From Acidobacteriota bacterium (GTDB taxonomy: Bacteria > Acidobacteriota > Terriglobia > Bryobacterales > UBA6623): a stretch of 64,000 bases of DNA. Under the pieces are notes generated by a model. It searched no databases, was not told where the DNA came from, and was given only the letters and a program-made list of their open reading frames with translations. The position numbers were made by a program, and so were the translations under genes. Every line of letters starts with the position of its first letter. Position 1 is the first letter of the stretch. This document shows, one piece after another, positions 1,496-51,023 of this stretch. The stretch covers positions 1 to 64,000 of the forward strand of contig JAQCLD010000006.1 in assembly GCA_027592785.1 (NCBI GenBank), given 5' to 3'.

Positions 1496-1828
1496 TTAGC
1501 TCTTCTCGGGCGGGGCCATGACCAGCCCGATGGCGCGGGTGACTTCCTGCCACTTCGACTCTTCAGCGAGCAGTTGTTTTCTGCCCGCTGCGGTGAGCCG
1601 GTAGAACTTCAACTCGCGGTTGCGGTCTTTCGCCTGTTCCCACTTGGAGACGATCCAGCCTTGACGTTCAAGGCGATGCAGCGCCGGGTAGAGCGAGCCA
1701 TGTTCTACCTGCAGGACGTCTTCTGACGTGCGTTGGATGTGCTTGGCGATGCCGTGCCCGTGCGCCGGACCGAATAGAAGCGTTCGCAACACCAGCATGT
1801 CGAGCGTGCCTTGTATCAGAGAAGCCAT
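1496..1828 (-). CDS. PadR family transcriptional regulator
   Basis: QGTLDMLVLRTLLFGPAHGHGIAKHIQ...VEHGSLYPALHRLERQGWI is typical PadR; adjacent to the permease. Confidence 0.93.
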   Translation of the reverse strand: MASLIQGTLDMLVLRTLLFGPAHGHGIAKHIQRTSEDVLQVEHGSLYPALHRLERQGWIVSKWEQAKDRNRELKFYRLTAAGRKQLLAEESKWQEVTRAIGLVMAPPEKS

Positions 1829-1834
1829 ATCGAT

Positions 1835-1872
1835 GGTAGATAATCTACCACTACGAAGGTAGAGTGTCTACT
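1835..1872. promoter_or_regulatory. Putative PadR operator: two copies of GGTAGA-N3-TCTAC(C/T)
   Basis: ggtagataatctacc (1835-1849) and ggtagagtgtctact (1858-1872), directly upstream of the padR-like start at 1828. Confidence 0.6.
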
Positions 1873-1895
1873 ATCGGAGTCGCCCCGTCAGCGAC

Positions 1896-2630
1896 TTACT
1901 CTTCGAAGCCGCGAAGCGATTCGATGAGGTCGTGGGCGGTGTGGTCAAACCGCAACGGCGTAATCGAAACTTTGCCGTCGCGGACGGCGGCATAGTCGCT
2001 GCCGGGTTCGGCGTCGTGGACGGGGATCTCTTCGTGCATCCAGTAGTAGGGGCGTCCGTAGGGATCTTGCGTCTCGATCATCAGGTTGCGTGAGAGGCGT
2101 CCGCTTTGATGCGTGATGGCAACGCCGTGATACGACGGATGGGGCACGTTGACGTTGAGCGCGATGCCGGCGGGCAGCCCGTGTTCCAGCGTTCGCAGCG
2201 CGATCTTCATGGCGAAGTCCGCCGCCGGGCCATAGTCGATGTCGACGCGCTGGTTGACCGACATGGCGATGGCCGGGATGCCGTATTTGGCGCCTTCGGC
2301 GGCGCCGGCGACCGTGCCGGAGTAATAAACGTTCTCGCCCAAGTTCGGACCGTTATTGATGCCCGAGACGACCAGGTCCGGCTTGAAGTCGAGCAGCAAG
2401 GTGAGTGCCATCATGCCGCAATCGGCAGGCGTGCCGTCGACGGCGTAGCGGTTCTTGCCGTGCATCTCATAACGGAATGGCTTGCGCAATGTGATCCGGC
2501 GGCTGGCCGCGCTTTGCTCGTAGAGCGGCGCTACAGTGTAGACGTCGCCGATGCGCGCCAGCGAGGCTTCGAGAGCGTGGATGCCGGGCGCAGAGATGCC
2601 GTCGTCGTTGGTGATAAGAATGCGCGGCAT
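1896..2630 (-). CDS. surE: 5'/3'-nucleotidase SurE
   Basis: MPRILITNDDGISAPGI...VSGINNGPNLGENVYYSGTVAGA. Confidence 0.97.
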   Translation of the reverse strand: MPRILITNDDGISAPGIHALEASLARIGDVYTVAPLYEQSAASRRITLRKPFRYEMHGKNRYAVDGTPADCGMMALTLLLDFKPDLVVSGINNGPNLGENVYYSGTVAGAAEGAKYGIPAIAMSVNQRVDIDYGPAADFAMKIALRTLEHGLPAGIALNVNVPHPSYHGVAITHQSGRLSRNLMIETQDPYGRPYYWMHEEIPVHDAEPGSDYAAVRDGKVSITPLRFDHTAHDLIESLRGFEE

Positions 2631-48097: not shown

Positions 48098-48237
48098 AAG
48101 TTCTTGTGGCTTATCGTCCACAACGCTCGATCTCGTTAGCTTCTCGCTGAACCCGGCGCTGGGCGTTTCAGGACAATTGCTCAATGCCGCCGCTCTCCGC
48201 GTGCTGTAGAATCTGGAAGCGCATAAGGAGTCTTCCC

Positions 48238-49131
48238 ATGGAACGCAAACAAGCACGTGATTTCCCCCAAGAGCTGCTCGACATCTTTGATCTGTATGTT
48301 CACGGCGATATCGACCGCCGCCAGTTCTTAGACCGCGCCAAAAAGTTTGCGGTCGGCGGCGTGACCGCCATGGCTCTGCTTGAGGCCCTCAGGCCGAACT
48401 TCGCCTGGGCGCAACAAGTCCCCAGCGACGATCGCCGGATTTCCACCTCGCGCGTGACCGTACCTTCGCCGCAAGGCAACGGAACGATCAACGGCTACTT
48501 GGTCCGACCGGCGAATCTCTCGGGCAAGGCGCCCGGAGTCCTCGTCGTACACGAGAACCGCGGCCTGAACCCCTATATCGAAGACGTCGCCCGCCGCCTA
48601 GGTACGGAAGGCTACGTCGCCCTGGCGCCGGATGGTTTGACCAGCGTCGGCGGCTATCCGGGCGACGAAGATAAGGGCCGCGAACTGTTCACGACCGTGG
48701 ACCGTCAGAAGATGGCCAACGATTTCATCGCCGCGGCCCGCTGGTTGAAAGCCCGCGAGGATTGCACCGGCAAGATCGGAGCCGTAGGTTTCTGCTTCGG
48801 CGGCGGCGTGAGCAACAACTTGGCCGTTCAACTGGGCGCCGACCTCTCAGCGGCCGTCCCGTTCTACGGCGCACAGCCCGCCGCCACAGACGTCGCCAAG
48901 ATCAAGGCTCCGCTTCTGGTCCAGAACGCGGGTCTCGACACGCGCATTAACGCTGGCTGGCCAGCCTACGAAGCCGCCCTGAAGGCTAACAACGTCAAGC
49001 ACGAGATGCACATGTACGAAGGCGCCAACCACGGCTTCCACAACGACACCACCCCGCGCTACGACGAAGCCGCCGCCAAACTGGCCTGGCAACGCACGCT
49101 AGCCTTCTTCGCCGCGAACTTGCGGGGGTGA
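48238..49131 (+). CDS. Dienelactone hydrolase family protein
   Basis: GVLVVHENRGLNPYIEDVARRLGTEGYVALAPDGLT...GKIGAVGFCFGGG...ANHGFHNDTTPRYD. Confidence 0.93.
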   Translation: MERKQARDFPQELLDIFDLYVHGDIDRRQFLDRAKKFAVGGVTAMALLEALRPNFAWAQQVPSDDRRISTSRVTVPSPQGNGTINGYLVRPANLSGKAPGVLVVHENRGLNPYIEDVARRLGTEGYVALAPDGLTSVGGYPGDEDKGRELFTTVDRQKMANDFIAAARWLKAREDCTGKIGAVGFCFGGGVSNNLAVQLGADLSAAVPFYGAQPAATDVAKIKAPLLVQNAGLDTRINAGWPAYEAALKANNVKHEMHMYEGANHGFHNDTTPRYDEAAAKLAWQRTLAFFAANLRG

Positions 49132-49164: not shown

Positions 49165-49297
49165 GGTATATATACCGGTCCGTCTAGTGTCGTATCCGAT
49201 CAAGGTATATATACCCTGATCGGATACGACACTAACAACACTGGTATATATACCATAGTTGAAATCAACCTCAAGTTCCAACAGAGGTATATATACC
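49165..49297. promoter_or_regulatory. Four-copy array of palindrome GGTATATATACC upstream of abiEi-like gene
   Basis: Exact copies at 49165-49176, 49204-49215, 49243-49254, 49286-49297. Confidence 0.9.
49185..49234. repeat. 50-bp near-perfect palindrome centred on the second GGTATATATACC
   Basis: TAGTGTCGTATCCGATCA ... TGATCGGATACGACACTA (18-bp arms); one mismatched pair (a49203/c49216) around the core. Confidence 0.92.
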
Positions 49298-49328: not shown

Positions 49329-50204
49329 ATGGCCCGCCGCGCTCCACTAGGCCTTGCCGTACAGCAGGTTGCGGCAGATTTTGACCAACTCCCGCAAACG
49401 GTCTTCTCCGGTCGCGCTCTGAACCAGCTTGTCGGAGAGCATGGCGCCGGCTGGCGGCTCCCGCCCCGTGAAGCTCCTATCGAACTCTTGCTTGAGAACA
49501 CCGCCCTGCGCGAGATCCAACTTGACTCGGTCAACCATCCCAACGTCGCCTCAGTCACCCGCTACGCCTGGGGTGAACCGGACGCCTTCGAGGTCGCCCT
49601 CTCGCTGAAAAAGAACGGCTACTTGTCGCACGGCAGCGCCGCCTTCCTCCACGGCCTCACCGACGAGCTGTCGAGCACCGCCTACTTGAACGTGGAGCAG
49701 AGCCCCAAGCCGAAGCCAGCCGGCCAACTAACCCAAGGAGGCATCGACCGGGCCTTCAGCGGCCAACAGCGGCAGTCGACAATGATTTACCGCTACGACG
49801 ACAGCCAGATTGTCATCCTCAACGGCAAAAATACGGGATTGCTCGAGGTCGGCGAGATCCTCTTCCAGGGTAAGAGCTACCTGGCCGCCAAACTGGAGCG
49901 GACCTTGATCGACATCGCCGTCCGGCCAGTTTACGCGGGCGGTGTCTATCAAGTGCTCGAAGCCTACCGCCGGGCGCGAGAGACGGTTTCCGTCGGCACG
50001 TTGCTGGCGACGTTGAAAAAACTCGACTACGCCTACCCCTATCACCAGGCGATCGGTTTCTATATGGAGCGGGCGGGTTACGAGTCTAAACTCTACGATC
50101 GGCTGAAGGCGCTTGGGATGGAGTTGGACTTCTACCTGGCCCACGGCAGCCGCGACCGCGAGTACTCATCAGACTGGCGGCTCTTCTACCCAAAGGGCTT
50201 GTAA
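49329..50204 (+). CDS. AbiEi-like type IV antitoxin / transcriptional regulator (291 aa)
   Basis: N-terminal wHTH-like region, [51 protein letters not shown]; next to an AbiEii-like gene. Confidence 0.8.
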
Positions 50205-51023
50205 GCGGTTGACCTGGCCAATCACAAGGTCGAAGTAGACATCGTATTCTTCTAGATCCGCAGCTACTGAGTTGACGACAGCCGGCCAGTCTGGTCTGTG
50301 AAACTCTCGATAGTCGCCAACCAAACGCAGCAGATCGAGGGGAACTTGCTTCACTGCAAAAACCTGTCTCAACAGCTCCAAATTTTCGGCGCTGGCGATG
50401 TCGATGTTCGTACTGGTCAGAACTAGATGAATGTCGTAGAAATCACGCGCCCGCGCTCGGCCGAGACCAAACTCGTATTCGCGCATCTGCTGGCAAATCG
50501 CCCGCAGCTTCTCCACCACCACCATCTCCAGGCTGTAAACGTAGATCGTGTAGTTTTCTAATTCGAACGACCGCTTACCTATCGTGTACTCGTTCTTGCT
50601 CAGGTCCACAGTGAAGACGCGACGTTGGCCAGGGCCTGTCGTTTCGACGTCTAGACTACGCTTCTCGGGACTCAGTCGTTGAAACTTCGATTTTTCGATG
50701 ATCTTGAAGCAGAGTTCGTAACCGCCCCACCAGGGCCGCACGTCCGGACCTTCCAAGCGAGGTTTTGGCTGTAGCCGTTCATCGAAGACAGCGTAGCCGT
50801 GCGAATCAAAGCGATCTCTTAGAGCACGAAAGATTCTGGTCCGCGAACGATCCAGGTCTTCAAAATCGGTCTCGAGAGAAAAATCAAGATCGAGCGATGC
50901 CCGCTTGCTGATCCCGTGTATCAAACTCAGGGCGTTGCCGCCTTTGAGGACCAACTGGTCGAGAAGTTCGTCGTCGGAGAAAAGCGCGACGATTGTGAGT
51001 CGCCGGATTTCTTCAAACGTCAT
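50169..51023 (-). CDS. AbiEii/AbiGii-like nucleotidyltransferase toxin (284 aa)
   Basis: [28 protein letters not shown] (GG/S and DxDxS NTase motif), [28 protein letters not shown]. Confidence 0.85.

Follow-up and report, generated by a model that had tools for sequence, protein, structure and literature searches.

A probable array of AbiEi operators upstream of a divergent abiEi gene that converges on abiEii

AbiE toxin–antitoxin systems, which act against phages and stabilise plasmids, are common and are described as a self-repressed operon. In a 64,000-nucleotide stretch of an Acidobacteriota genome (hereafter the window), four identical copies of the 12-bp palindrome GGTATATATACC fill the space that separates a dienelactone-hydrolase-like gene (48184-49131) from an AbiEi-like ATG at 49329. 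We asked to which gene the sites belong, what they probably do and how they compare with known AbiE operators. An earlier note on this DNA had listed the four copies and their spacing of 39, 39 and 43 bp, and all were confirmed at the positions in Table 1; the gene positions likewise bear out the intergenic place that it gave them, just before the AbiEi-like start. Allowing up to 2 mismatches, the window still contains four matches, whereas shuffled sequences contain 0.23 on average and none reached 4. The whole genome (4,549,964 bases) contains no exact copy beyond the window's four, and the reversed control pattern does not occur. A search of the window for a sigma-70-like promoter or terminator found none.

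Table 1. Sites and genes of the AbiE-like locus (window coordinates)
Feature	Position	Strand	Description
Core site 1, GGTATATATACC	49165..49176	.	without long paired arms
Core site 2, GGTATATATACC	49204..49215	.	middle of a long palindrome
Loop-less palindrome around site 2	49185..49234	.	50 bp; 25-nt arms; one A-C mismatch
Core site 3, GGTATATATACC	49243..49254	.	short remnant arms, 5/7 pairs
Core site 4 (proximal)	49286..49297	.	unpaired arms; centre 37 bp 5' of ATG
abiEi-like antitoxin/regulator gene	49329..50204	+	291 aa; winged-helix-like N-terminal and antitoxin-like C-terminal domain
abiEii nucleotidyltransferase toxin gene	50169..51023	-	284 aa; Pfam PF08843 1.4e-27; PADLOC AbiEii 5.5e-19
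Tail-to-tail abiEi/abiEii overlap	50169..50204	.	36 bp; most often 24 bp in relatives

The product of the gene behind the sites is a divergent AbiEi that belongs to the family by sequence and by fold. It matches PADLOC AbiEi (1.9e-14) and falls under the cut-off of Pfam AbiEi_1 (14.6 vs 22.2 bits). The best PDB matches of its AlphaFold2 model (built from 11 homologues, mean pLDDT 89) are Rv2827c (1zel, 2.1e-6) and Streptococcus agalactiae AbiEi (6y8q, 1.2e-5). Nucleotidyltransferase folds (2ewr, ANT(2'')-Ia and MenT1, E 0.01 to 0.1) come next after these AbiEi structures, and the C-terminal domain of AbiEi may therefore be a degenerate relative of the fold of its own toxin. Three residues that are present in close relatives are absent from the N-terminal domain of the window AbiEi (around residue 50), and DNA binding by this copy may differ as a result.

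The adjoining gene encodes an AbiEii/DUF1814 nucleotidyltransferase, a partner characteristic of AbiE and presumably toxic here. In AbiE, a type IV system, growth is arrested by the toxin and the antitoxin counteracts this without binding the toxin in a complex. Because the abiEii gene is convergent with abiEi and overlaps its 3' end, the locus departs from the described abiE operon, which is bicistronic with the antitoxin gene first (PMC3985639), and sites upstream of abiEi cannot repress abiEii as an operon member. The same arrangement recurs: 46 of 54 relatives' loci with abiEii are convergent, 8 are divergent (Lactobacillales and Staphylococcus plasmids) and none has both genes on the same strand, although a few of the 46 contain truncated genes or misplaced gene ends that make their individual overlap figures unreliable. 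The window genome also carries a second antitoxin gene, of the AbiEi_4 type, at G000:C20:34150-34290, with no GGTATATATACC nearby.

We collected relatives about 25–57% identical to the window AbiEi, some of them up to 82% identical to one another, from Acidobacteriota, Verrucomicrobiota, Myxococcota, Alpha- and Betaproteobacteria, Planctomycetota, Bacteroidota, Bacillota and Campylobacterota. Many are plasmid-borne, and none was found in the phage records searched. The 23 further genomes with a window-type AbiEi contain 46 exact copies of GGTATATATACC, 44 directly 5' of abiEi and 2 5' of abiEii (both in G1053), and no match to the control pattern anywhere. Including the window, this amounts to 50 exact copies in 24 genomes (~131 Mb): 48 before abiEi, 2 before abiEii and 0 elsewhere. 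One of the 23 genomes (G1016) lacks GGTATATATACC because its core is AGTATATATACT. The sites are still present in loci where abiEii does not follow abiEi (L018, L021, L047-L049 and L056) and thus track abiEi, not the toxin. There are 1 to 4 sites per locus, counts in which sites from related loci are non-independent and some start codons and orientations are predicted; in two relatives, L010 and L050, no sites were seen.

The palindromes of one locus usually have a common core, and the core varies with the AbiEi tree (GGTATA, AGTATA, GGTACG, AGCGTT, ATCATA, TTCATA and TGCGTA). It tracks the AbiEi clade and not the host: plasmids of S. aureus and S. pseudintermedius have a GGTATA core and an AbiEi that clusters with streptococcal AbiEi, and an S. 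epidermidis plasmid has an AGTATA core and an AbiEi that clusters with those of Macrococcus and Bacillus. The clade-tracking core and the restriction of all 50 exact copies to this locus type support the assignment of the sites to abiEi. The earlier note held that its reading would fail if the motif proved frequent genome-wide and unrelated to AbiE loci; in the 24 genomes every exact copy is associated with such a locus, so this condition did not refute the reading.

Some relatives have unusual neighbourhoods. In G1053, two more GGTATATATACC cores (L124:2587-2719) lie ~110 and ~230 bp 5' of the convergent abiEii (~1623-2474, minus strand), so that the motif is carried by both genes, which suggests that AbiEi can be wired separately to the toxin. 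A Sulfurimonas plasmid (L056) carries an AbiEi gene with AGTATATATACT palindromes beside a HipA gene and without abiEii. Read by eye, the window-type AbiEi gene divergently adjoins a second AbiEi-like gene in L018, L021, L047 and L049; in L018, L021 and L049 an AbiEii-like gene comes after this second gene, as though the window-type AbiEi regulated a canonical pair.

The near-regular spacing of the four sites had been taken as a sign of cooperative binding. The relatives do not support this, with centre-to-centre spacings from 39 to 231 bp and no convincing helical phasing (Rayleigh p 0.03 to 0.29 for three periods); we rejected regular spacing and phasing as conserved features, and the spacing in the window is the shortest of the family. 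The position relative to the gene varies less: the centre of the proximal site is mostly 20-50 bp 5' of the start codon. In several relatives, read by eye, this site lies over or just past -35/-10 elements. It coincides with the -10 in L011 and L042 (TTGACA-N17-TATATA) and directly follows the -10 in L028, L029 (TTGATT-N17-TATAAT), L031 (TTGACA-N17-TGTAAT), L032 and L056. L028 also has, ~60-170 bp 5' of its ATG at 1320, two tandem TTGACT-N17-TATAAT elements, each followed by its own palindrome.

Such positions raise the question of whether the core instead forms part of the promoter or is recognised by another host protein, its link to abiEi then being one of position only. TATATATA could indeed act as a -10 in several loci. 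However, distal copies ~40 to 230 bp further 5' are equally conserved, the Hymenobacter and Burkholderia cores contain no TATA, and the core tracks the AbiEi clade without copies elsewhere in the genomes. We therefore regard this explanation as very improbable.

We consider it probable that the four sites are operators by which AbiEi represses its own promoter. The same site precedes abiEi in unrelated bacteria, mostly within palindromes with paired arms, and is therefore very probably the antitoxin's own switch. The likeness of the AbiEi model to Rv2827c and S. agalactiae AbiEi counts for this reading, since both are proven autorepressors that bind inverted repeats in their promoters (PMC7319586, PMC3985639). 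Binding by AbiEi, repression rather than activation, any role of the arms and the toxicity of AbiEii are inferred, autorepression from comparative evidence. The winged-helix-like N-terminal domain would bind the 12-bp palindromic core, most simply with two protomers per site, and bound AbiEi would shut its own promoter, which appears to overlap the proximal site in several relatives. The convergent orientation of abiEii means that only the antitoxin level would be set in this way; the toxin would be controlled separately, or indirectly via the overlapping 3' ends.

Autorepression through a simple operator leaves a second property of the sites unaccounted for. The 12-mer is the middle of longer loop-less palindromes, of which we found 87 in the 420 bp 5' of abiEi in 52 loci (score at least 12; a few near-duplicate loci included), against 0.01 expected from dinucleotide shuffles. 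At least one was present in 45 of the 52 loci, and equal stretches within genes contained none. The palindrome around site 2 of the window, folded as single-stranded DNA, reaches -21.9 kcal/mol (z = -10.7). Sites 1, 3 and 4 have a perfect core without long arms, which indicates that the arms are not needed for conservation of the core. In the usual layout each core lies within a longer palindrome whose arms are dispensable for core conservation and may stay paired either through a function as a DNA hairpin or through homogenisation by template switching.

The arms are paired without being conserved in sequence. We computed arm statistics on 67 sites in 32 non-Firmicute loci after removing near-duplicates. 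Watson–Crick pairing at 6 or more of the first 8 positions was seen at 57 of the 67 sites, compared with 1.1% in a null that joined the left arm of one locus to the right arm of another. From the third position outwards the distal arms hold no more than ~0.1 bit per position, and the identity of arms within a locus (0.32) is near that between loci (0.29). In Firmicutes the arms are conserved in sequence too. Compensatory changes are found between orthologous sites: two paired swaps at the proximal site of L021 and L067, and several paired changes at the distal site of L066 and L049. The distal arms of L006, L071 and L072 differ throughout but pair completely, and the proximal 29 bp of these loci are identical, a mismatch included. 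As controls, the flanks of 19 parS sites (16-bp perfect palindromes) from related genomes are unpaired (mean 0.31, maximum 4/8), and 30 AbiEi_4 loci from related genomes contain no palindrome of this kind. Paired arms are thus explained neither as a general trait of conserved palindromes nor as a general trait of AbiEi loci, and both ideas were rejected.

One possible cause of pairing is an RNA hairpin in the abiEi leader, acting in translation control or as a repeated RNA antitoxin resembling type III systems. The right arm includes the ribosome-binding site in L008, L013 and L015, and the Firmicute palindrome starts near the predicted transcription start. Against this, only 2 of the 24 mismatches within paired arms are T-G, which is no excess, and 7 are A-C or C-A, a slight excess. 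The lack of a G·U bias points to a constraint on DNA rather than on sense RNA; apparently, judging from these mismatches, the pairing constraint acts at the DNA level. The predicted -10 of L008, L011 and L042 is the core itself, which would leave the left arm untranscribed. Matches to Rfam are sub-threshold miRNA hairpin models only. A structure of the sense RNA was rejected on the missing wobble bias and a known RNA family on the Rfam result; the repeats also differ from a type III antitoxin in that the arms are unconserved, carry no G·U bias and match no Rfam family above threshold. There is little chance that RNA hairpins explain the arms.

Two explanations at the DNA level concern the arms and are compatible with operator binding of the core. 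In the first, the arms are a functional cruciform or DNA-hairpin switch, extruded when the DNA is negatively supercoiled or single-stranded. AbiEi or RNA polymerase would tell the forms apart, so that antitoxin expression would respond to supercoiling, replication, plasmid entry or phage attack; this complements and does not exclude AbiEi binding of the core. The frequency of pairing over nearly information-free distal arms, the compensatory changes, the negative parS and AbiEi_4 controls and the absence of G·U bias all favour a function in DNA. Several observations do not fit: three of the window's four sites and seven others have lost the arms yet have a perfect core, several cores are not AT-rich (GGTACGCGTACC, AGCATGCATGCT), the AT-rich Firmicute arms are shorter and not longer, opposite to what stability would need, and the identical proximal arms of L006, L071 and L072, with their shared mismatch, suggest a sequence constraint there. 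We regard an arm function as tentative and rather unlikely.

In the second, only the core is selected and the arms are a mutational by-product of template switching at quasi-palindromes, which copies one arm to the other. Homogenisation of inverted-repeat arms by this route is documented (PMC8604942, PMC3820800, PMC7202029). It agrees with the bimodal distribution of the sites, at which pairing is either almost complete or gone, and with the scarcity of single-mismatch intermediates even though orthologous distal arms differ wholly (L006/L071/L072, L021/L067). However, parS sites are conserved loop-less palindromes too and gain no arms, and the presence of arms at most sites across many phyla would require an origin that is repeated or very old. 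A by-product is possible and somewhat easier to credit than a switch, though we would not assume it.

The broadest interpretation is of a widespread, horizontally spread AbiE-like type with convergent, 3'-overlapping genes, whose antitoxin is controlled by palindrome arrays selected for self-complementarity; AbiEi would read the centre, and sequence-free cruciform or hairpin arms would sense DNA topology or single-stranded DNA. Taken as a whole, this is doubtful. The earlier note was right about the exact sites, and its link between them and abiEi is supported; its inference of cooperativity from spacing is not supported, the four-site layout that it did not recognise has a precedent, and it missed the longer palindromes and the convergent toxin gene. 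Because the recurrent branch fully separates the promoters of the two genes, the logic of joint toxin and antitoxin repression cannot apply to it. Strict pairing without sequence conservation is a rule rarely seen in bacterial DNA, and either outcome for the arms would be informative: an antitoxin promoter that senses topology or hairpins, or a clear natural case in which template switching maintains palindromes. AbiEi genes of the window type are also easy to find in genomes by their fixed core.

We compared the locus to described AbiE systems. It shares with S. agalactiae abiE an antitoxin of the AbiEi fold, an AbiEii nucleotidyltransferase and inverted repeats over the abiEi promoter. That system, however, is a bicistronic operon with abiEi first and a 4-nt overlap, and has one pair of 23-bp inverted repeats 3 bp apart with an outer TGTTGCTTTTA (PMC3985639), whereas here the genes are convergent with a 3'-end overlap and are preceded by 1 to 4 separate loop-less palindromes with a fixed centre and free arms. 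The canonical 23-3-23 operator with a conserved outer sequence is absent: the palindromes lack a loop, their centres are 39 to 231 bp apart and the outer arms are unconserved outside Firmicutes. In ICESsuHN105 of Streptococcus suis, AbiEi binds two palindromes in its own promoter and represses it, as shown by EMSA and reporter assays (PMC11062541); palindromic sequences in the abiEi promoter are common to both, but the sites there are IR1/IR2 of the abiE promoter, and the available text of that report mentions neither free-arm palindromes nor convergent genes. The four-site architecture, which the earlier note did not recognise, has a precedent in M. tuberculosis Rv2827c-Rv2826c, with four repeats in ~130 bp 5' of the antitoxin gene (PMC7319586), so an array of four repeats before an AbiEi gene is already known; Rv2827c is also the structure that the window AbiEi model matches best. 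Unlike the sites in the window, the M. tuberculosis repeats fall into two 23-bp inverted-repeat pairs that differ in affinity, and the antitoxin and toxin genes are organised as an operon (PMC7319586). In the open-licence literature searched, exact GGTATATATACC occurs in one gene-therapy paper only, and neither the convergent branch nor palindromes with free arms were found described, which is weak evidence of absence. The locus would work like AbiEi autoregulation but with another operator layout and without the operon. The observation is real, and the locus probably represents a new form of AbiE autoregulation, one that leaves the rule of its palindromes unexplained.
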